The notes under the pieces were generated by a model. That model worked only from the letters and a program-made list of their open reading frames with translations. It was not told where the DNA came from and made no database searches. Positions 1 through 18,906 of a stretch of DNA of 64,000 nt are shown one piece after another (position 1 is the stretch's first letter; each line of letters begins with the position of its first letter). This stretch comes from Clostridia bacterium. GTDB lineage: Bacteria; Bacillota; Clostridia; Christensenellales; Aristaeellaceae. Location: contig JAGBBA010000075.1 of the NCBI GenBank assembly GCA_017938695.1, positions 1 through 64,000 of the forward strand, given 5' to 3'. The translations under genes and the position numbers were made by a program.

Positions 1-3000
1 AAGAACGAAAACGCGCTCAATGAACTGTGGGGACAAATCAAATATGTCTTATATCCACTCAACGAAGACGGATCATTGAGTACCGCAATCGTTGGCGGCA
101 ATGTTAACGATGAAGATATTCCCCTACTCCGCGATGATCAAGTATCTATCGTTGGTTCTACAGACCAATATCGTATTGCGACAATCAAGATAGACAATGT
201 GATTCCTGGATATCAGGCAGGAGAAAAATATGCCATCAAGTTCATCACTAAAGCAAGCGGATTGATCGGTGCAAAAGAAGTTGCCATAGAAGCTAAAAAG
301 AAGCTGATTGCTAATTTGGAGCTGGATCTTGAAAAAGAAATTGAAGACGATGAAAAAATTCGAATTCAAGAACAGATAGCTTCTATCGAGTCTGATATAG
401 CGTAGATCTACACAGGATCAGATGAGGCGGAAGGCTTGAACTCCATGATGTGTAGAGCAGCAGCTTAGGCAGATGTGGTCAATACAAATACTGTATCTTT
501 GACTTCCGCTCAGATCAGACAGAACAATGCAGAGTTTGAATTCTCATCCGTAATGGGCGATATGCTCAAAGATGGTTACTGGTCAAATACAAATTATATT
601 GTAGGCCAAGAAGTTTTCCTCTACGCCGACGCATTAGATGTGTCTGCGGAGATTTCCAAACCAAAGGTAACATACACTATTTCACTATCGGCGTTGTCAA
701 AAGAAATGGGCTATACTGATGAACATATGGAATTGAATTCTGCTGTTCGTCTATATGATGTTGAGTTGGAAATAAATGACATCGTGTTTGTAAAAAGGAT
801 TACAAGATATCTCGACGATCCCACAAAGAGCACGGTGGAAATTTCTAATGAAGACATTATCCTACAAGGTCAAACACTTGATTCTATCTTAAGCCGCATT
901 ACGCAGATAGCCGATCTGATTGATCAGAAGGGCAACCTACTGAACCGAGTTAGTGATACAATATCTTCAGATGGATCTGTCTTTATTGAAAGACTGAATG
1001 GACAAATTGATGTTTTGAAGAACCGTCTGCTATCAACTACATCCAATTGGTATACCGATGCGCAAGGCAATATAATCTTCGAAGAAGTAAACGGACGCTC
1101 TGCGATGATGTAGTGCGGCGAAGGTTTCATGATTGCCAACGGGAAGAATTCTCTTGGCGAGTGGAACTGGCGTACATTTGGTACAGGAGAAGGATTCACA
1201 GCGGATGCAATTATTGCAGGATATCTTTCTGCTGATAGAATCGAAGCGGGAAGCATTGGCAGCGGGAAACTTGAAAAACAACTGGCTACAGATATTGGCA
1301 AAATCCCAGCTATGCAGGAGGCGTTGATCGAACTGTCTCCGGAGAAGATCATTTCTACAGTATTGACTTCTACCGAATACAAGGAACAGATATCGACAAT
1401 AGAACAAACCTCCGACCAGATTAAGTCTACTGTAACAGATTAGACCGAGCGAGTTGGTAAGGCTGAAAGTTCTATCACCCAGAACGCCAATGAAATCAAA
1501 ACTAAGGTAAGCTACACCGACTATAACACAAAGATCAATTCTTTAGAAAGCTCCATAACTCAGAACGCAACACAAATTCAAGCTAAAGTATCTCAGTCTG
1601 TATATGACGAAGATATGAAGACCATTGAGACTGACATCTCCACGCTTACTCAAACAGCACAAGAAATCAGGTCAGACTTAACATCAACGACATCTGATTA
1701 GGATGGCCGCCTGACTAAGGCTGAAAGCAACATTACACAAAACGCGAACAGCATCTCCACAAAAGTAAGCTACACAGAATACAATACCAAGATCGGCACA
1801 ATGGAAAGCTCCATAACTCAGAACGCCGATAGCATTTCTACAAAGGTAAGCAAGGACGGCATCATCAGTTCCATCAACCAAAGCTCCGAAGCTGTGACTA
1901 TTAGCGCAGACAAAATCTCTTAGATCGGAGCAAGCAAAATATCTCTGGAAGGACTAACCACTGTAAATAGCAATTTTATTGTGAACACAGATGGCTCCAT
2001 CAAGGCTGTCAATGCGGATATCACCGGAACAATTACTGCCACAAACGGAAAGATCGGTGGATGGACAATTGGTACAGATTCTTTATATGCTGGAAGCGGA
2101 ACAAACAGAGTGTCACTAAGCACAGGAGATTCTACCTATGCTATCTGGGCTGGTGCTGAATCATCTTCTGCTGCTCCTTTCCGAGTGACCAAAGAAGGTA
2201 TCGTGTACTTGACTAAGATGTATGTGACAAATGAAGAAGGCGTTGCACAAAGCGATCCAGTCAATCTAAGAACAAGCTACTGGAAAATGGATGCGGCATA
2301 CAGTCATTCTGTTAAGACCCTTAGTGTTTCCAACAACACATAGACCATCGAATTATACAATGGTACATCTGTAAATTTTAAGAAGGCCGCTACTGGTACT
2401 CTGGTAGCATCTGGTAACGGCGCAGACAACTTTACAATTAGCTATATCACTGACTATGCAGGACCTGGAACTGGAACGACAGTCGATTCTGGATCTGTTA
2501 GACTGGCTCTTAACAGTACAACGTACAACGCATCATCCAGTGTGATCGCCTCCTTCGACGGAACGGCATATGGAACTATTCCCGTAGGTGGTGTATATAC
2601 TGCTGGTGTGAACAGTGTCACAGTTCCCAATGCTTCAATCGTCAGACAGGCTGCTGACTATTATGCTGGCGGAACAGACCATTCAACTACAGTATACATC
2701 AAGGCTACAGCAAGCAATGGCAATTACGGAACGCAGCGTTTCTCTGTGAGTGGTGCTAGTGCATATAACGCAGGAAAGTCAGCAGGAAATACAGAGGGAT
2801 ACAATTCTGGTTATAGCGTAGGAAAAACAGATGGTGCGAATAGTGTTACTCTCTCTGCTGGAGGATGGCAATCAAATGCCACGAACACAATTACTGCATC
2901 GAACGGACAGACAATATCTGTAAGTGTTCCTAATGTCACTGTATCTCAGGGAAGCTGGTCAAGTGGCAGCAAGACGGTTAGTGCGTATTATGGAAATAGC

Positions 3001-3141
3001 GGACGTTTAGGATATACAACTGTTACCATTCCAGACATATCTATTTCATGGTCAAACCCAGCACAAGGAAATGCAATGGTAACTGTTACTTGTGGTGGAA
3101 AAACAGTAACCTCTAGCAAAAACGTATCGAGTTACGTCTAA
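1..3141 (+). CDS. Phage tail protein (tail-tip/prophage-tail type), 5' partial, seven in-frame TAG
   Basis: The reading frame is open from base 1 to TAA at 3139-3141 once TAG is read as sense. The TAGs are at 403, 466, 1111, 1441, 1699, 1921 and 2341. The 1046 visible residues resemble the C-terminal part of Bacillota tail-associated proteins. There is a structural domain, a stretch around residues 372-430 with the GFMIAN and RIEAGSI motifs typical of these proteins, then two copies of a coiled-coil repeat (SITQNAN...TKVSYT-YNTK, from about 1444 and 1702). A beta-rich C-terminal part follows, rich in Ser, Thr, Gly and Asn. The TAGs at 1441 and 1699 fall at equivalent points of the two coiled-coil repeats. 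The N terminus lies outside the window. Its role, tail tip or host contact, is inferred from family and position. Confidence 0.85.
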
Positions 3142-3170
3142 TATCTTCTACATAGAAAGGAATATGATCA

Positions 3171-3353
3171 ATGAACTATAAACTTGTTATCGAAAATATT
3201 ATCAACACTTAGAATGGAATAACTACTTCTGGCCGAGACAATTGGGATAGACTACTTGGCTGCGACCAAGCTCTCAGAGCAATCTTGGCTGATATGCAGC
3301 AGCATGAAGTCGAGAAAGAAGCTGAGAAAGCAGAGAAGGATCAGGAGGAGTGA
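3171..3353 (+). CDS. Small phage protein, one in-frame TAG
   Basis: Sixty codons start with ATG at 3171, about ten bases after an AAAGGAA ribosome site, and end in TGA at 3351-3353. One TAG interrupts the frame at codon 14 (3210-3212). The C-terminal third is a charged Glu/Lys-rich helix (EKEAEKAEKDQEE). Small proteins of this kind commonly sit between tail genes in Bacillota phages, but I do not recognise the family. The TGA terminator shows that TGA is still a stop in this phage. If TAG were a stop, only a 13-residue peptide would result. Confidence 0.6.
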
Positions 3354-3404
3354 TATGCTCCTCCCCTTCTCAATTCTGACTTTCATTTGAGGAGGTAATA
3401 AACA

Positions 3405-4064
3405 ATGCCAGAAACCAGAACACGGTATGTCTCTGCTCCTTTTGTTGAAGGTTGCTATGTATTGACCATCCGTGGCATTTATCAATACGACCACGGCCTA
3501 AAGCTAAAGATCAGCGGATAGCCAACCAAGCAAATCCCGCAGATGCACTTTGCATATGACGGACAGCGGAATACAATACCTACTATACCCGTATGGGATG
3601 GTGACTATTTAATAGCAGATATCCCAGACACAATACTGATGCAGCCTAAAGAGGTATGGTGCTACATATACATCGAAGATGAAACAAGCGGATACACCAT
3701 CCGAGAGATTCATCTTCCATAGATTCCAAGAGGAAAGCCAACCGATACTTCGTTTACGCCAGAACAAATCAATAACTACAATGCACTTGTTTCTAACATG
3801 AATACCCTGATGCAAGACATGGATGTTTTGCAGAACATTGCAGTTGAGGTTGAAATGGTAAACCCAAGCGAAGATCCTACGGCAAAGGTAACACAAGATG
3901 AGTCACAAACCTTGTGGTCATTCAGCATACCTAAATCCAATGTAGCATATGCCACATTCGAAGTTGACCACACAGACGGATGCTTGTATATGACTACGCC
4001 AGAAGGATTAGAAGATATTGATTTTCAACTTTCTGATGATGGTGAAATACTTCTTATCATTTAA
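3405..4064 (+). CDS. Phage tail-associated protein (baseplate upper protein-like N-terminal region), two in-frame TAG
   Basis: The start is ATG 3405, nine bases after GAGGAGGT, and the stop is TAA 4062-4064, giving 219 residues when TAGs at 3519 and 3720 are read through. The N-terminal 100 residues look like the beta-rich domain found at the start of many Bacillota phage tail or fibre-linked proteins (motifs LKISG, GDYLIADIPD and an I-LP-IPRGKPTD linker). A short helical segment and a C-terminal beta domain follow. It lies directly upstream of the DGR-target fibre gene and may contribute to the same receptor-binding assembly. That role is an inference from position. Confidence 0.65.
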
Positions 4065-4067
4065 CTC

Positions 4068-4096
4068 TTGACAAAGAACATTCGTTCTCATATAAT
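4068..4096 (+). promoter_or_regulatory. Consensus sigma70-type promoter inside the late operon
   Basis: TTGACA (4068-4073) and TATAAT (4091-4096) are separated by exactly 17 bases. It lies in the 157-base gap before the fibre gene. Perfect consensus promoters are unusual in the middle of phage late operons. Predicted start is near 4103. Confidence 0.85.
4075..4088. promoter_or_regulatory. LexA/SOS-like inverted repeat between -35 and -10
   Basis: AGAACATTCGTTCT contains the GAAC-N4-GTTC half-sites of the Gram-positive LexA (DinR) box, and its outer bases also pair. It occupies the promoter spacer, where a bound repressor would block RNA polymerase. The inner four bases only partly fit the RNRY consensus, so a phage repressor with a similar operator is an alternative. 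Confidence 0.55.
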
Positions 4097-4101
4097 GTTG
4101 T

Positions 4102-4200
4102 TGCGGAGTAATCCGCACACAATGATATATAACCACACTCACGAAGACACAAGAACGCAAGGCCAATTATGTTTGGTCTTTATCTTGTGTCTTTTCATTT
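4102..4200 (+). ncRNA. Candidate structured small RNA or leader attenuator upstream of fibre gene
   Basis: The predicted transcript opens with a hairpin, TGCGGA-GTAA-TCCGCA (4102-4117), closed by a GNRA-type tetraloop. It ends with a compound hairpin: an outer 11-bp stem (4144-4154 with 4183-4193) enclosing an inner 8-bp stem (4159-4166 with 4173-4180), followed by a U-rich run. A promoter, a 5' cap hairpin and an intrinsic terminator within about 100 nt make a self-contained RNA unit. It could equally be an attenuator controlling the fibre gene at 4222. No open frame of note lies in it. Confidence 0.5.
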
Positions 4201-4221
4201 TTCTACGGAGGTGTAATACAA

Positions 4222-6039
4222 ATGCCTACAACTAATCTTGGTCGTGTTGGTTTTGTCCCCAAAGGACTTTATAGCGAAACCGCTACATACAAGCGGTTAG
4301 ACTGTGTTGTGTACAACGGAAACACCTATGCAGCACTAAAAGATACGACAGGTATCAACCCTGAGAATACTTCTACTTGGCAGATGCTCGTGGACAACAG
4401 CGATGCCACAGAAGCACTTAATAATGCCCGTAACGCCCTGAACAGAGCCAACGAGGCCAGCAACAGTATTCCTACTGAAATTCAAAATGAAATAGCCAAA
4501 CTAACTGACAACAATGCCGACATGGCAGAAGTAATCAGCGCAAGAACTACGGCTGACGAAACGGCATATCCAACATAGAAAGCTCGTTTGGATGCACAGT
4601 ACAATGAGCTGAAAACAGATATTCGCCGCATCGACTATAAGACTGGTACGCATATGTACGGTATCTTGTGGGATAAAACCACAGCTACTTGCACCAGATA
4701 GTATGATGCGGTTGGAATGGAAGCTGCGGCACACTTAGGAACATACAATGCCAACCTTGTAAATGACTTCGACAATGTATATCCTTGGAGCCACCGCAAA
4801 CTGTGCAATGTCGATTTAACAGAATACAGCCGTCTATACGAAGCTGGCGCAGATATAGAACAAGCCATTACTGCATGGGAGGGCGATCCTGATTTCTCCT
4901 ATACTGGCGAGAACGGAGCTGTGATGGTTTATACTCCTGCCTTCTATATGCATACAGAAGAAACAGATGAAGGAGTTCTTGTTGCTATTGCAGACGGAGA
5001 GCTGGAAGGCTGGATTAAAGTACCACGCTATATCGGTGGCCGATACACTGCATCCGATGACGGCAATGGAGGACTGACGAGCGTAGCTGAGGTTATGCCA
5101 ATTTCTCGTGTGACGCTGGGCAACATCCATAAGCAAGCAAAAACAAACCATATGACATTGGAAGACCTGTGGACATTCACAGCAGATACAGCATTGATGG
5201 CGGTTGAGTTTGCAACACTTAATATGCAAGCCGCAATTGGCAATGGTGTAAGCAGCCTGTACCGTCAGACTGAAACTGATAAACCTTTGATTGCCGAAAC
5301 AGCGACAAACAGAGTAATCCTTCCAACAGGAATCGGATCATACTGCATCCCTGGCGCGATTCTTGATATCGGTACATCTGCTGGCAGCGCATCTGTCGGA
5401 CATAAAGTTGTGATAGAAACTCAGGAATACCCAGACAATGCGGCATATCAGATTGTTGTGTTTGCAGGAGATCCAGTAGATATCACCACAGACCTTTTCT
5501 GTTCTATCCACGGCTTATGGCATACGATAGACGCAGAGATCGGTAGTGCTTCTGGCTACATCGGCGCAAACAGTCGCTCCCACGCCTATTATCGTGGTCG
5601 GATTGCTTATGCAAATACGTGGCGTTATGTCTTAGGTGCATACCGCGAACAGAATACAGGACATATATGGATTGCTCATGACCGTGAGGAAGCAGATGCC
5701 TATGATGCGTTAAACAAGACAGTTCATACGGATACAGGCTTTGTTCTTCCTTACATATTCGGAGAGGATGGAACAGCACCTGAATGGGGCGGATATATTA
5801 ACGATATTCACTTCCATGAAGAACTGCCTCTACTGCCATTTGCTAAATCTCGTGGCGGTAATAGCGATCAGCCAATTGGAGACTATGTATATCTGCCAAG
5901 TAGCACTGGTGGTAACACAATTTAGCTTGTTGGTGGTAACGCGGACCGCGGTGTTGGCTGCGGTCGTTTTTGCGGTGGCTGGGACATCACCTCTGGCGAC
6001 TCGAGCTGGGACTGCTCCGCCCTCCCCTTCTTAAAATAA
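4222..6039 (+). CDS. Phage tail fibre / DGR target protein with C-terminal variable region, three in-frame TAG
   Basis: ATG 4222 follows a strong GGAGGTGT site. Read through TAGs at 4576, 4699 and 5923, the protein has 605 residues and ends in TAA 6037-6039. The N terminus (residues 1-50) is a short domain (VPKGLYSETATYKRLDCV...) seen at the start of phage fibres, with a coiled coil at residues 55-140. The large middle and C-terminal part ends with a GRFCGGW...SGDSSW...CSA stretch like the C-type-lectin fold of DGR targets. Residues 569-601 are the VR. The TAG at codon 568 directly precedes it, so termination there would remove exactly the hypervariable ligand-binding segment. Receptor binding is the established role of such targets and is inferred here. 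Confidence 0.88.
5925..6024 (+). repeat. DGR variable repeat (VR)
   Basis: It matches the TR at 6155-6254 over 100 bases without gaps. There are 14 substitutions, every one at a position where the TR has adenine: 12 A to G, one A to C and one A to T. Eleven of the twelve AAC/TAC codons of the TR are changed. The 3' end (TCCGCCCTC) is invariant and GC-rich, as expected for the initiation-of-mutagenic-homology site. It encodes the last variable stretch of the fibre protein. Confidence 0.95.
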
Positions 6040-6056
6040 TCCTTTCCGAAGGGGTA

Positions 6057-6078
6057 CACGGGGAACGCTTTCCCCGTG
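6057..6078 (+). other. Hairpin downstream of VR (DGR target-recognition-like)
   Basis: A perfect 9-bp stem, CACGGGGAA (6057-6065) with TTCCCCGTG (6070-6078), encloses a 4-base loop, 33 bases past the VR end. In the Bordetella phage DGR a short stem with a tetraloop just after the VR is needed for efficient target recognition. The same role is inferred here. There is no U-run, so it is not an obvious terminator. Confidence 0.6.
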
Positions 6079-6154
6079 ATAACTGATAGGATTGGAATAC
6101 GATATATACTATAGTCTACATCGTTAGACATCGGCTCTTGATAACATTCTTCGG

Positions 6155-6254
6155 GCTTGTTGGTGGTAACGCGAACAACGGTGTTAACTGCGGTCGTTTT
6201 TACGGTAACTGGAACAACACCTCTGGCAACTCGAACTGGAACTACTCCGCCCTC
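6155..6254 (+). repeat. DGR template repeat (TR)
   Basis: This 100-base copy of the VR lies between target and reverse transcriptase. It carries ten AAC and two TAC codons in the VR frame; A-mutagenesis of those codons cannot create a stop. Similarity to the VR stops sharply after TCCGCCCTC on the 3' side and before GGCTTG on the 5' side. The flanks 6040-6154 and 6255-6398 contain no convincing gene. They presumably form the TR RNA needed for cDNA synthesis. Confidence 0.95.
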
Positions 6255-6398
6255 ACTTCTTTCGATAGGATGCAATAATATCGAGTTTTCAAGAGTCCGT
6301 GCCCCTTGGCAAAAATTAAGCATAAAGGATATGGTTTAGTAGGTTGGTCAGCTCCGCTGGCACTTCTCGGACGACCATCAGCGAAAGAAGGTCTACTC

Positions 6399-7481
6399 AT
6401 GCCGAAAAGAATCGGCTTTGTATATGAACAGGTCATCTCCCTGGACAACTGTATATTGGCTGTCCAGGAGATGGCTCGTTCTAAACCCAAAGTTCGTCGC
6501 GCTCAGTACATGAAAGAAAATGCTGAGTACTTTGGAAAGAAGTTGCATGAACAGCTTTCCTCTGGGACTTGGGAGCCTCGCCCTTACCATGAGAAAACCA
6601 TAGGTGATGGGATTGAAAAGAAACAGAGACACATTAAAGTTCCTTGCCTTTGGGATCAGTGTGTCCATCATGCATTGATGCAAATAACTGCACCCTATAT
6701 CCAACGTCGTAATTACTTTTATAACTGTGGCTCAATACCAGGAGCCGGACAGATCCGGATTACCCGTGCAATCAAACGATGGATGGCGAAAAAGAAAATG
6801 GTGAAGTATGGTGCTTCACTTGATGTTCACCACTTCTTTGAGAGCTGTAAGACAGAAATCGTTATGAAAGCTCTGCCAAGAATTTTCAAAGACAAAAAGT
6901 TTTTAGCTCTTCACCGCAAAGTATTAGATAGCATGGGAGGCTCATTAGCCATTGGGTTCTGTCCTTCCCACTGGTATGGCAATCTCGTCTTATCCTATAT
7001 CGACAATCTGATTAAGCAGCGTTTGTTGCCTCGTGCAGATTATGGCCGATATATGGATGATATGGTTATCCTTTTCAACGATAAACGCAAGATGCATAAA
7101 GCAATAAGGATAATCAGCAAGGTTCTAAAGAAATTAGGTCTATGTCTCAAAAAGACATGGCAAGTGTTTAAGATAGCAGGAAGAGGAATTCAGTTCTTAT
7201 CATATCGCTTCTTTCATGGATATACCCTTTTGACCAAGAAGCTGATGTATAGAATTACGAGACGTATCAAGGCTCAAACCAAGTGCAAATCTCCCTCCCC
7301 TCATGCTGCCGCATCAATCATTAGCTACATGGGTATCTTGAAGCATTGCAATAGCTATAACTATATGAAAGATAGAGTATACCCATACGTTAACATTAGA
7401 AAATGTAAAGGAGTGATCCGGAATGAAGCGCGTAGAATTCACAAACTTACCACCGAAGTTCGAAATCATAGAGCAGCGTAA
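6399..7481 (+). CDS. DGR reverse transcriptase
   Basis: This 360-residue retroelement reverse transcriptase copies the TR RNA with adenine-specific errors. The catalytic motif is YMDD (residues 218-221, bases 7050-7061), preceded by the DVHHFFESC motif near residue 145. The domain-4 motif reads IGFCPSH, the IGxxxS(Q/H) form typical of DGR enzymes rather than the QGxxxSP of retroviruses. I place the start at ATG 6399, nine bases after GAAAGAAGG. An upstream in-frame ATG (6306) would add 31 residues without a ribosome site. It contains no TAG codon, unlike most neighbours, so it can be made under the standard code. The stop is TAA, overlapping the next gene by 59 bases. No separate accessory variability (Avd) gene is seen. 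Confidence 0.95.
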   Translation: MPKRIGFVYEQVISLDNCILAVQEMARSKPKVRRAQYMKENAEYFGKKLHEQLSSGTWEPRPYHEKTIGDGIEKKQRHIKVPCLWDQCVHHALMQITAPYIQRRNYFYNCGSIPGAGQIRITRAIKRWMAKKKMVKYGASLDVHHFFESCKTEIVMKALPRIFKDKKFLALHRKVLDSMGGSLAIGFCPSHWYGNLVLSYIDNLIKQRLLPRADYGRYMDDMVILFNDKRKMHKAIRIISKVLKKLGLCLKKTWQVFKIAGRGIQFLSYRFFHGYTLLTKKLMYRITRRIKAQTKCKSPSPHAAASIISYMGILKHCNSYNYMKDRVYPYVNIRKCKGVIRNEARRIHKLTTEVRNHRAA

Positions 7482-8043
7482 TGGCAATGTGTTGCTGCTA
7501 TTCTATGATGAAACAAAAGAAGTGGTAAAAGAAGATGGACTTACCAGCTATGAAACGATCTGTTATGAAATGCAAACACGCAATGCGGCCAATTTGCATA
7601 GCAGAATCGAAAAAAATTATTCTGCTTGGCTTGAAAAAGCAAAGGAAAAAGATGGTGGCCTGACCTCTGTAAAAGCCCAAAGAATCCACGAATCAAAGGC
7701 GAAATTGGCTGAGTATTTAGCCTCTCACCCTCTCGTTTCCGATGTACATGGTGGACGCATTGGCATCTACTCTGTAACAGAAGAAAAGCAAACACTAATG
7801 ATGTCTCAGTACATCTCTTATCAAGCAGAAAAAATGCTGAACCCAAACGCTGTATTGACCTGGAATGAAACAGGAAAAGCGTGTGAACCTTGGACAGAAG
7901 AAGAGTTTGTTCAATTGGTATCTGAAATCCGCAACTATGTTTATCCCCGTGTATCCCATCAGCAAACTTTAGAGGAAGAGATCAATGCAGCCACTACGCT
8001 TGACGAAGTAGAAGCTGTTGTGATCCAGTATGAAACAATCTAA
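7423..8043 (+). CDS. Phage hypothetical protein downstream of DGR RT
   Basis: 206 residues start at ATG 7423 with AAAGGAGTG upstream and overlap the reverse transcriptase end. No TAG codon interrupts it. It has a small N-terminal beta region (VEFTNLPPKFEIIE), a long charged helical middle (residues 55-110) and an acidic C terminus. Its context, between fibre/RT and lysis genes, is where tail-fibre assembly or chaperone-like proteins occur in Bacillota phages. I do not recognise the family. It is too large and unlike the usual Avd bundle to be called Avd, though a DGR accessory role cannot be excluded. Confidence 0.7.
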   Translation: MKRVEFTNLPPKFEIIEQRNGNVLLLFYDETKEVVKEDGLTSYETICYEMQTRNAANLHSRIEKNYSAWLEKAKEKDGGLTSVKAQRIHESKAKLAEYLASHPLVSDVHGGRIGIYSVTEEKQTLMMSQYISYQAEKMLNPNAVLTWNETGKACEPWTEEEFVQLVSEIRNYVYPRVSHQQTLEEEINAATTLDEVEAVVIQYETI

Positions 8044-8452
8044 ACTAATCAAACCCCTGTCCCTCTTCTGCGTAGGAGGGACAGGGTATATTCTTATTGA
8101 GATTCTTTATCGGGGATATACACATTGGACAATGTTCTTGCTCGGCGGATTATGCTTCTTGTTGTGTGGTTTGGTCAATGAAAAACTAACATGGGATATG
8201 CCTATGTGGCAACAGCAAGGAGTATGTGCATAGATCATTACTGTCCTTGAATTCTTATTCGGTTGTATTTTGAATCTGTGGTTGGGGCTTGGTATTTGGA
8301 ATTATAGTTCGCAACCATTCAATATCTTAGGTCAAGTTTGTTTGCTATTCACGTTTGCGTGGTATTTTCTTTCTGCTGTTGCAATTATTCTGGACGATTA
8401 TCTACGTTATCGTTTATTCGGTGAGCAATTCCCACACTATATTTGGTGGTGA
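8030..8452 (+). CDS. Phage-encoded polytopic membrane protein (CmpB/putative ABC permease-like family), one in-frame TAG
   Basis: ATG 8030 overlaps the previous gene by 14 bases and TGA is at 8450-8452. Reading through TAG at 8231 gives 140 residues with four hydrophobic segments. Motifs such as GYILIEILYRGYTHWTM, IITVLEFLFG and NILGQVCLLF match the family annotated as putative ABC transporter permease (CmpB-type), which also occurs next to phage lysis genes. TAG falls immediately before IITVLEF in the third segment. As a stop it would leave half a membrane protein. A holin-like or envelope role is inferred from the neighbouring lysin. Confidence 0.75.
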
Positions 8453-9867
8453 TGCCTTTGTAGATCAAACTAAAAATAACAAGAAAATCAAATGCTGACT
8501 ACTTCAAAGTAGATCTAAACGATATAGTTTCTATTGACTTGGAAGATTATATTACAGGCGTAGTCGCCAGCGAGGTGGGAAACGCACACATTGAAGCTTG
8601 CAAAGCTCAGGCCATAGCTGCACGAACATTCGCTTGGCAGTACATTAAATCTGGCAAAGCAATCTCTGATGATTCATCAAGCGCACAAGCCTTTAGAACT
8701 GAGAGAATGCGTAGCGCATTATATCCTCATGTCAATGAAGCTGTAGACACTACAAGCGGAATGATCTTGACATATGGCGGAGTGCCATTGTCCACCTGTT
8801 CATATAGTGCTTCAAATGGCGGTAGAACTGTTTCCTCAGAGGAACGATGGGGAGGCAAGCGAGCATGGCTTATTGCGCAAGATGATCCGTGGGATCTCGC
8901 CGCAACTAATGGCAAGAAAACAGGACATGGTGTTGGTATGAGTCAAGCCGGAGCAAAGTATGCAGCATCAATCGGAAAAACATATCAAGAGATCTTATCG
9001 TTTTATTATCCCGAAACAACCATAATGGTTATGAAAGGAGGAAACATTACAATGTCTACAACTGTAAAAGCAAGCTATTAGGTGACAGGTTTTAACCAGA
9101 TGCTAAAAGAGCATTGGAAATATGTATGGGGCAGCGCAAAAGAAGGTGAAGTTGATTGTTCTGGTGCGTTTACATACCTATACAAAAAAGCTGGAAGCAC
9201 TATGTATCATGGTTCTAACACAATGTACCGCAACTATACCACATCAAAAGGGAAAATCGGTGAGATAGCATAGATACCAGGAATGGCAGTATTCAAACAT
9301 CGAAATGATGGCAAAGAACCAGACAAGTTCAAAAAGGATGGCCTCGGCAACTTTTTTCACGTCGGATTATATGTTGGTTCCGGATAGGTAATCGAAGCCA
9401 AAGGAACCGCATATGGAGTTGTCACATCAGACATAGATGAATGGAGCCATGCCGCAAGACTGGTTAATACTGAATACGATATGGATGAAGTTGCCGAATC
9501 AGAAAACAATGAATCATGTTTAACTGGTATAGTCACAACAGAAAGCGGTTCTCTAAATATCAGATCGGGACCATCAAAGAAACAAACTCGTATTGCGAAA
9601 GCTCCACAAGGTTCGACACTAATCATTAAGCAAGAAAATGTAAACAATACAGGATGGCATAAAGTTTCCTATAATGGCAAAGTGGGGTATGTAGACGGTA
9701 GCTTTGTGACCATTCAGCATAATCAAAAAACGCAGCCGACTACACATCACTACGCCTTGAAATTCCATGTTTGTGATAAAGTGAAAGCAGAAGAATTCCA
9801 GAAAGTACTACAAGAGATAGGTTTAGATGTTGAAGTAGTACCAGATGAAGCGGAGGATGATTTATAA
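8452..9867 (+). CDS. Lysin: SpoIID-like plus NlpC/P60 plus SH3b, four in-frame TAG
   Basis: The frame runs from ATG 8452 (sharing TGATG with the previous stop) to TAA 9865-9867, giving 471 residues. TAGs lie at 8461, 9079, 9271 and 9385. Residues 1-200 are a SpoIID-type lytic transglycosylase domain (DYITGVVASEVGNAHIEACK with its catalytic Glu; GHGVGMSQAGAKYAA near the end). Residues 205-345 are an NlpC/P60 peptidase (VDCSGAF catalytic Cys; FFHVGLYVG catalytic His). Residues 355-425 are an SH3b domain (LNIRSGPS, GWHKVSYNGKVGYV). An in-frame internal ATG at 9052 is preceded by AAAGGAGG, so the peptidase-SH3 part may also be made alone. The fourth codon is TAG, so the long form cannot start without recoding. 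Confidence 0.88.
9037..9054 (+). promoter_or_regulatory. Internal ribosome site and ATG within the lysin gene
   Basis: AAAGGAGG (about 9037-9044) lies 7 bases before the in-frame ATG 9052, exactly at the SpoIID/NlpC-P60 domain junction. It could yield a separate 271-residue peptidase. The reading frame of the upstream domain passes straight through it without a stop. Confidence 0.6.
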
Positions 9868-10193
9868 TGGATTGGGTCGAATGGATATTGCGTTATTGGG
9901 TAGATGTTTTATTTGGATAGATCTGTGCCGGACTAGCTGCCGGATGGAAATATCTACACAGCAAGATTAAAAAGCATACCGCAGAAGACGTAGCCATGAA
10001 GAACGCTACATAGGCTCTCTTAGATAATAGCATGGGGCGGTTATTCCAAGAATGCAAAAACAAAGGATATACTACCCGCGAAGAAGCAAGACGATATGAG
10101 CGTATGTATGTGGCATATCATGGACTTGACGGTAACGGAGCAGTAACGAACGAACATAATCACTTTCAGAAGTTGGATATTCGAGATGACTAA
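9867..10193 (+). CDS. Small phage membrane-anchored protein of the lysis region, two in-frame TAG
   Basis: ATG 9867 overlaps the lysin stop (TAATG) and TAA is at 10191-10193. The 108 residues contain TAGs at 9918 and 10011. The N terminus is one hydrophobic segment (WILRYWVDVLFG...AGLAAGWKYL), followed by a charged domain with EEARRYERMYVAYHGLDGNGAVT. This architecture is common for the small protein next to holin genes in Bacillota phages, where the Y-AYHGLGGNG motif recurs. Standard-code gene callers would miss it because the longest TAG-free piece is short. Confidence 0.75.
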
Positions 10194-10494
10194 AAAAGAA
10201 AATTGGCTTTCCGGATTAGATAAAGCTACAAAGAAAAAGCTTATCCAGTTTTCAAAGATAGTCGTTGCGTTTGTCGTTATTGTTGTTAGCGTCATGTGCT
10301 ATCATGGTATGATCTTAACTGCCTTACGAAATGATATGAGTACTGTATCAGATATAATCGGAAAGTATATTGACTTTGCTAAGTTAGCTTTTGTTTCTTA
10401 CAGTGTAAATAGCATTTCTGAAAAGGCTATATTCAGCAAAACATCTACTCAACAAATGGAAGAAAACGGTGAAAACGAAGGAGGAACTGGCTAA
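10186..10494 (+). CDS. Putative holin-like membrane protein
   Basis: 102 residues start at ATG 10186, overlapping the previous gene by 8 bases, and end in TAA 10492-10494. A strongly hydrophobic segment (residues 22-50, KIVVAFVVIVVSVMCYHGMI) is followed by a second weaker one and a Gln/Glu-rich tail ending in GGTG. No TAG interrupts it. Position between lysin and an LLH-type holin suggests holin or antiholin function. The family is not recognised with certainty. Confidence 0.6.
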   Translation: MTKKENWLSGLDKATKKKLIQFSKIVVAFVVIVVSVMCYHGMILTALRNDMSTVSDIIGKYIDFAKLAFVSYSVNSISEKAIFSKTSTQQMEENGENEGGTG

Positions 10495-10904
10495 TGGAAC
10501 TATATCAAATTATAATTATTTTGTTCGCGGTTATTATTGCAGGATTATATATCTATCGTCGCATTACAGGAATAGATCTGTTGCAAAAGATTGCATAGGC
10601 GAAACCTGTAGTGGCAGCAGTAGCATCTGCTGTTGAAGCAGCATATAAGCTTTGGCCGAACGACGCTCTGAGAATTGTCCATACAGTTCTGAAAGCTGGT
10701 GCTGAATCAGCAGAGACAGCCGAAAAAGCATGGCTCATGGGTGATCTTGAAAAGGAAAAACGGAATGAATATGCAAAGACTTTGGCTAAAGAAACTTTAG
10801 AAAAAGCCAATATCGAAATAACACCACAGATTGAAATGATTATCGGTGGCATCATTGAGGCAGTATGTATTCTTCTTCCGCATGGACAGACACCTAAAGC
10901 ATAA
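10494..10904 (+). CDS. Phage holin, LLH-like family, one in-frame TAG
   Basis: ATG 10494 overlaps the preceding TAA and the gene ends in TAA 10902-10904, giving 136 residues with a TAG at 10596 (codon 35). One N-terminal membrane segment (IIIILFAVIIAGLYIYRRI) is followed by a helical cytoplasmic part (VAAVASAVEAAYKL...EYAKTLAKETLEKANIEIT...IEMIIGGIIEAV), the layout of LL-H type holins. It is the last gene before the phage terminator. Confidence 0.75.
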
Positions 10905-10920
10905 CCCCAAAAATAAACAA

Positions 10921-10953
10921 GGGAACGGAGTAACATCCGTTCCCGATTTTTTG
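10921..10953 (+). terminator. Intrinsic terminator ending the phage late operon
   Basis: GGGAACGGA and TCCGTTCCC pair (9 bp) around a 6-base loop, followed by GATTTTTTG, 16 bases after the holin stop. Confidence 0.9.
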
Positions 10954-11156
10954 TTTTTGGGAGTTCTGTTTTGTTTCGTATGTATTTCAAAAATGTTTCA
11001 ATTCGAAAATTTATACTTATCTTTTCATCATCTTCGGTGCTGCTCCGAAGCCTTCTCAACTGTGAATGATGATAAAATTGCTTAGATTCCAATTTTTGCT
11101 ATTTTCAATTTATTGTATTTGTTATACATATCAAACCACTATATATTGTGTTTCCA
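10954..11156. other. AT-rich spacer between phage terminator and attachment-site remnant
   Basis: About 200 bases without a convincing gene. A small hairpin (CTTCGG...CCGAAG near 11033-11051) is the only structure noted. Short translations here have no ribosome site or family resemblance. Confidence 0.6.
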
Positions 11157-11205
11157 AGGGTCTCCAAAACCTTTGTTCTGGGTTCGAGTCCTAGTGCCCC
11201 TGCCA
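11157..11205 (+). other. 3' half of tRNA-Trp(CCA): likely right attachment site of the prophage
   Basis: Anticodon arm AGGGT-CTCCAAA-ACCTT (11157-11173) has the CCA anticodon. A T-arm with loop TTCGAGT (11183-11189), acceptor strand TGCCCCT (11195-11201), discriminator G and encoded CCA (11203-11205) follow. No D-arm or 5' acceptor (AGGGGCA) is found upstream, so this is a fragment and not a working tRNA. Integration into the 3' part of a tRNA gene leaves exactly such a fragment on the far side of the element. Confidence 0.85.
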
Positions 11206-11365: not shown

Positions 11366-11626
11366 TTGGACGACAAGAAAAAACTCGAGCTGAACGACGA
11401 AGACCTTGAAAAAGTGGTGGGCGGTTTCAACATCGGCGATCACGTGAGGGCCAATGCCCATATGATTCGCTATTGCCCCGGCTGCGGTAAGCTTGCAATG
11501 TATTCCTATGGAACTGTCGTAGGGATAACGTGGTATGAGAGAGAACAGCATTACTTCCTCGATATCAAAACAGATTGTTGCGGCCATGTAGAAAGAAGAG
11601 CTGATTTTGCCTGCGAGCTCTATTGA
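11366..11626 (+). CDS. Double-glycine-leader peptide with zinc-ribbon-like core (cassette 1)
   Basis: 86 residues start with TTG 11366, eight bases after AAAGGAGG. The leader LNDEDLEKVVGG (residues 8-19) matches the bacteriocin-type double-glycine signal cleaved and exported by C39-peptidase ABC transporters. The core (GDHVRANAHMIRYCPGCGKL...DCCGHVERR) has a CPGC knuckle and a CCGH pair, suggesting metal binding. The protein of cassette 4 is a clear paralogue, with the same GIGD/NIGD start, YCP-C and CCGH. No maturation enzyme or transporter is visible in the window. Confidence 0.75.
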   Translation: MDDKKKLELNDEDLEKVVGGFNIGDHVRANAHMIRYCPGCGKLAMYSYGTVVGITWYEREQHYFLDIKTDCCGHVERRADFACELY

Positions 11627-18429: not shown

Positions 18430-18906
18430 ATGAAAAATGCAGCAAAGTTATCCATTTTTGCCATTATGTTGTGCGCGTTTTTTTGTGTTTCACATGCCTC
18501 CGCCGATATCCCATGTATTTGTCATAAAGAGAAATGTACCTGTTTCATTCAAATTGGAGATGAGGGTATTGCAGTCAAGGAAATCGGCAAAGTGCTCTTT
18601 GAACAGGGATATCTATATCATCCCTTTACAGTTTTCAACGAATCCTTTGAACAAGCCGTAAAGCACTTTCAAGAAAAACAAAACTTACCTGTCACCGGTA
18701 TGCTTGATGACAAAACGCTTACGCTCCTCCTTTGGGGTGAGCCTACTACACCTCTGGACAGCATAAATTTCGTATGGGTACCAACGGATGGTGGAAAGCG
18801 AGCGCATATCAAACCAACGTGCTGTCAAATGCTTGATCCTCGCCTTATTTCTGCAAAAAATGCCGAAGCATTAGGTATTAAGCCCTGTGGAATATGCAAT
18901 AAATAG
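18430..18906 (+). CDS. Small secreted protein with peptidoglycan-binding domain
   Basis: 158 residues from ATG 18430, preceded by AGGAGGTGAT, a near-complete complement of the 16S rRNA tail. Residues 1-25 are a signal peptide (IFAIMLCAFFCVSHASA). Residues 45-105 are a PG_binding_1 repeat (VKEIGKVLFEQGYL...FQEKQNLPVTGMLDDKTL). The C terminus has H-KPTCCQM and an ALGIKPCGIC ending like the Cys-rich tail found in secreted nuclease and Ada-type metal sites. Eight further cysteines lie in the mature part. It is AT-richer than its neighbours, and it stops at TAG, showing that TAG is a genuine host terminator. Confidence 0.75.
   Translation: MKNAAKLSIFAIMLCAFFCVSHASADIPCICHKEKCTCFIQIGDEGIAVKEIGKVLFEQGYLYHPFTVFNESFEQAVKHFQEKQNLPVTGMLDDKTLTLLLWGEPTTPLDSINFVWVPTDGGKRAHIKPTCCQMLDPRLISAKNAEALGIKPCGICNK

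Follow-up and report, generated by a model that had tools for sequence, protein, structure and literature searches.

In this work, a comparative genomics approach was applied to the first 11,157 bases of a 64,000-base stretch of a Clostridia bacterium genome (hereafter the window), which forms the beginning of the 131,004-base contig C56 of the draft genome G000 (76 contigs, 87.5% complete). We propose, with a probability of roughly 0.8, that these bases are one end, with late genes, of a temperate phage integrated into the tRNA-Trp gene of a bacterium with the standard code, that TAG is a leucine (Leu) codon in this phage, and that its decoder is most likely a tRNA-Leu with the anticodon CUA, tRNA-Leu(CUA), encoded in the missing part of the prophage. 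A broader proposal, which we consider likely though less so, is that TAG encodes Leu in temperate phages of one gut Clostridia family by means of a phage tRNA-Leu(CUA); this would be a code distinct from genetic code 15 (TAG as glutamine, Gln), represented by two sets of phages with non-matching late genes, in hosts that keep TAG as a stop codon.

TAG is a sense codon in the phage genes of the window. Eleven open reading frames (ORFs), designated g1 to g11, tile positions 1-10904 (Table 1), and eight of them contain in-frame TAGs (g1, 7; g2, 1; g3, 2; g4, 3; g7, 1; g8, 4; g9, 2; g11, 1), 21 in sum, with no internal TAA or TGA. The terminal codons are TAA in nine ORFs, TGA in two, and TAG in none; the genes free of TAG are the reverse transcriptase gene g5, g6, and g10. 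This recount agrees with an earlier sequence-only reading, which had reported 21 TAGs in eight genes, none of the phage genes ending in TAG, and a host using TAG as a stop. The last claim is borne out by spoIIIAE, spoIIIAF, and spoIIIAH (names from that reading) and the gene at 18430, all of which end in TAG, and by a gene for release factor 1 (RF1; TIGR00019, above the curated cut-off) on contig G000:C11. In the other two forward frames, TAG accounts for 99 of 439 stops, and obtaining 21 TAGs out of 21 by chance has P ~ 3e-14; the 3,456 codons would hold about 220 stops if the reading frames were not maintained. With TAG read as sense, the tiled ORFs in 1-11000 average 1001 instead of 575 nucleotides (nt), against shifts between -4% and +14% in four 11-kb host stretches. 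Under this reading, several products are recognizable: tail proteins (g1 and g4), a cell-wall enzyme with SpoIID, NlpC/P60, and SH3 domains (g8), and members of PHROG families (g3, g6, g7, and g9). The occurrence of TAG within late genes together with its disuse as a stop, a trait of code-15 phages, is thus found here as well. Apart from the TAGs themselves, nothing favors a decaying prophage in which they are nonsense mutations. We regard this explanation as extremely improbable, given 21 in-frame stops without a single TAA or TGA, an NlpC/P60 domain that extends across two TAGs in g8, and a diversity-generating retroelement (DGR) whose template and variable repeats differ at 15 of 102 positions, all of them template adenines (15 of 24 adenines, 0 of 78 other bases).

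The residue opposite each TAG was evaluated in alignments with homologues drawn from viral contigs, from phage records, from contigs of named genomes, and from the host family (308 genomes). The likelihood test used emission tables that were built on sense codons in these alignments and gave each position one vote. Homologues below the stated identity and near-duplicate loci (23 in the window tests and 31 in the pooled test described below; for a few pairs both copies) were left out. Homologues cover 19, 18, and 16 of the 21 window TAGs at identity cut-offs of 25, 33, and 38%, respectively, and never the two TAGs of g3. Leu ranks first among the 20 residues at all three cut-offs; known residues are recovered in 95-100% of equal-size draws, these controls being run on the same alignments that built the emission tables. 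The nearest homologue carries Leu at eight of 19 TAGs (g1 156, 371, and 781; g2 14; g4 160 and 568; g8 213 and 277), Val or Ile at four, Ala at two, Asn, Met, Gly, Lys, and Arg at one each, and Gln at none. At seven of 18 TAGs Leu is the commonest residue among the homologues, compared with 47% of true Leu positions and 6% of Gln positions (binomial P 5.5e-5), and the Leu-over-Gln score is positive at 11 of 18, compared with 78-85% of Leu codons and 13-19% of Gln codons. Distant homologues are ambiguous for most genes, and the residue was decided by the closer ones. Judged by these alignments, the TAG columns are Leu-like and not Gln-like, and TAG most likely means leucine in the window phage.

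A second prophage, in the genome G264 from another genus of the same family, encodes at a contig end a lysin that is 52% identical to that of the window and contains three TAGs. TAG103 is opposite Leu in 69 of 71 homologues and TAG332 in 28 of 42; at TAG205, which shares its column with a window TAG, Leu is the most frequent residue (12 of 42). The TAG in the G264 homologue of g10 faces Leu, Ile, and Val (two each of six), that in the homologue of g11 faces Leu or Val (three rows), and a sixth TAG, in the ORF after g11, has no homologue. When both phages are pooled (23 positions at 33% identity), the scores are +10.2 for Leu, +3.6 for Ile, +3.1 for Val, -5.3 for Gln, -19.9 for Tyr, and -22.4 for Trp, and none of 20,000 random draws of Gln positions reaches the observed Leu-over-Gln score. 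In both phages TAG therefore aligns with Leu, with some misfitting columns. Homologues of the tail protein in G095 and G277 have one TAG each, opposite a window Leu and opposite Ala, respectively.

As a control, 24 recoded loci sharing the lysin family were analyzed in parallel: Gln is best in 21 of them and Leu is negative in all 24, the best residue in the other three being Glu (L014 and L203) or Lys (L189). These loci were picked by eye for coding gain with TAG open and are not all independent; two have four or fewer positions, and in two the best score, that of Gln, is still below zero. The residue test detects code 15 where it is used, and the window and G264 stand apart. Lysins of the SpoIID type accompany a TAG-open coding gain and a Gln result in L186, L188, L193-L196, L198-L202, L204, L205, and L207-L213; among the scanned lysin-sharing loci, a tRNA gene with the anticodon CTA (CTA tRNA) occurs only in the record of L014, within the stretches examined. 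That the window phage is itself a standard code-15 phage, with TAG as Gln as the sequence-only reading assumed and a tRNA-Gln(CUA) to read it, would agree with the commonest known phage recoding, with the 21 Gln results among the control loci, and with the presence of Gln in a few TAG columns (g9 49, g8 315, and g11 35). Nevertheless, Leu outscores Gln in the window, whichever identity cut-off is applied, and in the pooled set, and random Gln sets fail to attain the Leu-over-Gln score; code 15 is rejected for this phage by the residue test, and we consider it very improbable.

The right edge of the prophage was located by comparing 18 genomes of the same genus (G000 and 17 others). Homology to the window begins exactly at 11158 in 12 of the 17, all 12 retrieved loci carry an intact tRNA-Trp(CCA) at that site, and in G064 and G131 the downstream host sequence is syntenic with the window. 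The segment at 11158-11205 is therefore the right attachment site (attR), and everything to the left of it is phage. The two signs of integration at a tRNA gene, a repeat of its 3' end and an intact gene in relatives, are thus present at the right end. Neither a left att site nor an intact tRNA-Trp was found in the G000 bin; no tRNA-Trp occurs among its typed tRNAs (44 of 46 matches were typable), and the left part of the prophage must therefore be missing from the bin. The earlier view of a lysogenised code-15 phage holds with respect to the recoding, to TAG as a host stop, and to the joining of phage and host, here located at a tRNA-Trp att site, and is unsupported with respect to Gln, since homologues place Leu-like residues in both the window and G264 phages and the control loci do return Gln. 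The element had also been placed at 1..10904 and taken to continue to the left. Its right edge is at 11157/11158, and the window starts where the contig starts, within the phage.

There remains a small but real chance that the phage is a free one, joined to the host contig by a chimeric assembly through the identical 48-base tRNA-Trp segment. The shared segment is indeed 48 nt long, and the window and G264 phages both run off a contig end. Repeats of 48 nt are usually resolved by assemblers, however, an att repeat at the 3' half of the tRNA is what integration predicts, and in G119 (L230, contig G119:C2) a tRNA-Trp gene (11428-11499) and a fragment with similarity to the window lysin are about 5 kb apart. 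The latter observation suggests that integration at tRNA-Trp may be an old habit of this group of phages. The chance of a chimeric join is a reservation about lysogeny and leaves the code unaffected.

Candidate decoders were found in other phages of the host family. A pattern search for tRNA-Leu(CUA) matched two of the 308 family genomes (G186 and G060; none for a reversed control pattern), three viral contigs, and not one of 245 genomes in a class-wide sample; a weak tRNA-like match in G300, whose anticodon loop lacks CTA, was discarded. ARAGORN predicted a CTA tRNA at all five places (G186, G060, L261, L262, and L298), which it printed as Pyl from the anticodon. In L298, a 144.8-kb viral contig, this tRNA is at 1435-1519 on the minus strand and adjoins five other tRNAs. 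The other four are 83-85 nt long (85 nt in G186 and G060). Against a panel of 15 tRNAs (14 of G000 and one tRNA-Trp of G131), each comes closest to a tRNA-Leu, and by our reading each has a long variable arm and A73. The 75-nt CTA tRNA of the control locus L014 is closest to tRNA-Trp, with Leu absent from its best five. Leucine identity in E. coli depends crucially on A73 and not on the anticodon (PMC9976931), and the Leu-type CTA tRNAs should therefore be charged with Leu.

The phages of G186, G060, and the viral contig of L261 represent one lineage (most shared proteins 75-93% identical, one 59%), with TAG in genes for the primase-helicase, the DNA polymerase III alpha subunit, the anaerobic ribonucleotide reductase, and others. 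In G186, the CTA tRNA belongs to a phage region whose tyrosine integrase gene is free of TAG. At 13 distinct TAG columns with a sense codon in a sister phage, that codon is for Leu in 10, Gln in two, and Ile in one; this count replaces a per-phage count of 11 of 14 for Leu, obtained from the first alignment only. Nine further columns have TAG in every aligned sister. In the anaerobic nucleoside triphosphate (NTP) reductase, the SCCR-TAG of G186 and G060 corresponds to SCCRL in L261 and in the solved structure 4coi from PDB. The four aligned TAGs of the L261 polymerase (172, 497, 833, and 895) are opposite Ile, Val, Leu, and Leu of 2hpi. The L261 record (G313) has eight TAGs in the terminase, for which no PDB match was obtained, and six in the portal, while its plus-strand ORFs at 45-64 kb contain no TAG. 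A serine recombinase of the integrase family in the same record (L292, 18032-19630) contains three in-frame TAGs, which is odd if the enzyme must act before a suppressor is made. A broader residue test, which also counts spurious ORFs and is noisy, gave Leu as best in five of six records; in G313, seven positions have a Gln majority, six of them in minus-strand ORFs (four in ORFs overlapping the plus-strand reverse transcriptase) and one in the helicase. These comparisons indicate that phages with TAG as Leu and their own decoder probably exist in the host family, not that the window phage has such a tRNA.

A number of observations weigh against leucine or against the proposed decoder. The pooled Leu-over-Gln score is lower than that of 98-99% of equal-size draws of true Leu positions; therefore, some positions are weak or the decoding is not pure. 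Polar or variable columns face several TAGs of the window: g8 315 (mostly Lys), g9 49 (Arg/Gln), g11 35 (Met/Gln), g4 119, g1 135, and g8 7. CAG is opposite TAG in two of the 13 sister columns, TAG141 of the L261 reductase is opposite Ala in the solved structure, and the L261 helicase TAGs are mixed against 8e2l (Leu at 140 and 300, Ile at 324, His at 328, Ala at 375, and Glu at 518); against the T7 helicase 5ikn, the residues are Leu at 518, Thr at 324, and Arg at 328. In the record of L262 (G314), two positions are usable and Trp is best. For the G060 and L262 tRNAs, a tRNA-Leu is the best match, and tRNA-Trp shares second place with another tRNA-Leu. No CTA anticodon occurs among the 44 typed tRNAs (46 matches) of the incomplete G000 bin or among the 54 typed tRNAs (56 matches) of G264, whose phage is also cut off. 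Finally, the late genes of the G186, G060, and L261 lineage are unlike those of the window: only the reverse transcriptase matched, at 24-25% identity, and no counterpart of g1 was detected in G186 or G060, nor in the L261 and L262 records.

Part of this evidence would fit mixed or ambiguous decoding, in which TAG stands sometimes for Leu and sometimes for another residue, or the lineage lies between two assignments; seven of 18 window columns have a Leu-over-Gln score below zero, CAG faces TAG in the sister columns mentioned, and a higher pooled score would be expected of leucine alone. The columns other than Leu are mostly variable ones, however, the five G264 TAGs with homologues all face mainly Leu, or Leu with Ile and Val, and a conserved leucine of the reductase is written TAG in two phages. 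Mixed decoding is, in our estimation, improbable, and leucine remains the preferred assignment.

Under this assignment, we infer that a tRNA-Leu(CUA) is encoded in the prophage portion absent from the contig. The leucyl-tRNA synthetase of the host would charge it; the E. coli enzyme is independent of the anticodon. In the lysogen, the suppressor tRNA would be silent and host RF1 would terminate at TAG, so that the tail, DGR-target, and lysis proteins would be cut off early; upon induction, the suppressor would appear and full-length late proteins would be made. Some weight is lent to this late-gene lock by the Leu-type CTA tRNAs of other phages that use TAG in this host family. Alignment suggests that the true start of g8 is near 8452-8458. 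The TAG at 8461 is among the opening codons of the lysin gene, and the second codon if the start is TTG 8458; left unsuppressed, it would block almost the whole lysin.

Table 1. Features of the prophage end and its boundary in the window.
Feature	Positions	Strand	Evidence
Prophage right part, late genes (proposed)	1..11157	+	ORF reading, PHROG profiles, att comparison
g1, tail or tail-tip-like structural protein, 5' end missing; TAG at 403, 466, 1111, 1441, 1699, 1921, 2341	1..3141	+	PHROG tail and minor head families; partial homologues 45-53% identical
g2, small protein; TAG at 3210	3171..3353	+	ORF
g3; TAG at 3519, 3720	3405..4064	+	phrog_16164; no homologues covering its TAGs
g4, tail protein and DGR target; TAG at 4576, 4699, 5923	4222..6039	+	phrog_5302, E=1.3e-28
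DGR variable repeat (VR), within g4	5925..6026	+	Comparison with template repeat
DGR template repeat (TR)	6155..6256	+	Comparison with VR
RT-18 RNA motif	6300..6390	+	Rfam RF03021, 46.4 bits (gathering score 41.3)
g5, DGR reverse transcriptase, no TAG; ATG at 6399, frame open from TTG 6306	6399..7481	+	PF00078; phrog_1423, E=3e-80
g6, tail-fibre-like, no TAG	7423..8043	+	phrog_1348
g7, probable membrane protein; TAG at 8231	8030..8452	+	PF06541; phrog_20274, E=1.6e-39
g8, SpoIID, NlpC/P60, and SH3 cell-wall enzyme (probable lysin); TAG at 8461, 9079, 9271, 9385	8443..9867	+	Domain profiles
g9; TAG at 9918, 10011	9867..10193	+	phrog_4105
g10, small protein, no TAG; possibly holin-like, by position	10186..10494	+	ORF
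g11; TAG at 10596	10494..10904	+	Homologues in G264 and G174
attR, 3' half of tRNA-Trp (CCA), prophage right edge	11158..11205	+	Same-genus comparison

The adenine-specific repeat differences and the reverse transcriptase identify a DGR in the window phage, which shares with known DGRs the TR, the VR, the reverse transcriptase, and an RNA associated with it. Unlike them, it sits in a recoded phage with a TAG-free reverse transcriptase, and no accessory (Avd) protein was identified. The first 11 kb have no near DNA match in the phage collection, g1 has no relative among the scanned viral contigs, no terminase was detected in the G000 bin by PF03354, and no ribozyme family matched the first 14 kb of the window. 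To the right of the phage, the tRNA-Trp 3' end occurs four times between 11158 and 13600 (at 11165, 11666, 12178, and 12626); the first three copies are about 500 bases apart, each with a hairpin and, by our reading, ahead of a small gene with a double-glycine leader-like sequence. Five small proteins of this region have no Pfam match, and the region resembles an array of peptide-gene cassettes at a hotspot of integration. In the same genus, tRNA-Trp is likewise followed by repeated 3' ends in L155, L156, L158, L159, and L162. A second tRNA-Trp 3' end lies 5.1 kb from the intact gene in L163 (G203:C79, 1550-1599 and 6674-6720) and 1.3 kb from it in L160 (G024:C25, 1808-1855 and 3086-3133); these are probably other small elements inserted at the tRNA-Trp site.

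Recoding of stop codons by phages is well known, and the system described here appears to be a variant of it, the new element being that TAG most likely means leucine. Borges et al. reportedly found in 2022 that recoding is concentrated in late genes. Code-15 gut phages (crAss-like, phAss-1, and others) have TAG as sense in structural and lysis genes, as does the window phage, which differs from them in its Leu-like TAG columns and in being joined to a host chromosome. A classical leucine amber suppressor is supP (leuX) of E. coli, a tRNA-Leu with a CUA anticodon that places Leu at UAG; in contrast to the proposed phage code, it is a laboratory mutation of a host tRNA. A phage code with TAG as Leu would resemble NCBI table 16.

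Phage recoding is usually described as converting TAG to Gln or TGA to Trp, and Gln at TAG was shown by proteomics in two crAss-like phages (PMC9523058, where the word leucine does not occur); TAG as Gln, code 15, is also given in PMC10607447 and PMC13037316, the latter a large survey that assigns TAG-open phages to code 15 on coding density alone. Phages reading AGG as Met have been described (PMC8629427). As far as the available text of PMC10879173 goes, 180 phage suppressor tRNAs are of the Gln, Trp, Ile, and Tyr isotypes, with none for Leu and no occurrence of the word leucine. The suppressor-tRNA phages with theta ribozymes in that work resemble our case in that phage CTA tRNAs are proposed as a late-gene switch, and differ in lacking a Leu isotype and in having a ribozyme family that the first 14 kb of the window do not match. 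Nuclear UAG as Leu, via a suppressor tRNA most like tRNA-Leu, is reported for uncultured phyllopharyngean ciliates (PMC11687900); that code is eukaryotic and genome-wide, in contrast to a phage in a cell that stops at TAG. A literature search found no published phage with TAG as leucine; subscription papers and preprints were mostly outside its reach, and absence from print is not proven by it.

Leucine may be an easy route to such a code, because leucyl-tRNA synthetase does not need the anticodon: an anticodon change in a tRNA-Leu may suffice for a working switch between lysogeny and lysis. If a group of temperate phages does encode Leu by TAG, residue assignment has to proceed lineage by lineage, some published code-15 proteins may contain wrong residues, and the recoding switch would have evolved with at least two amino acids. 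Here the lysin and tail genes contain TAG and the chromosome around them stops at that codon, so that a lysogen would offer a direct test of whether recoding sets the timing of late gene expression.

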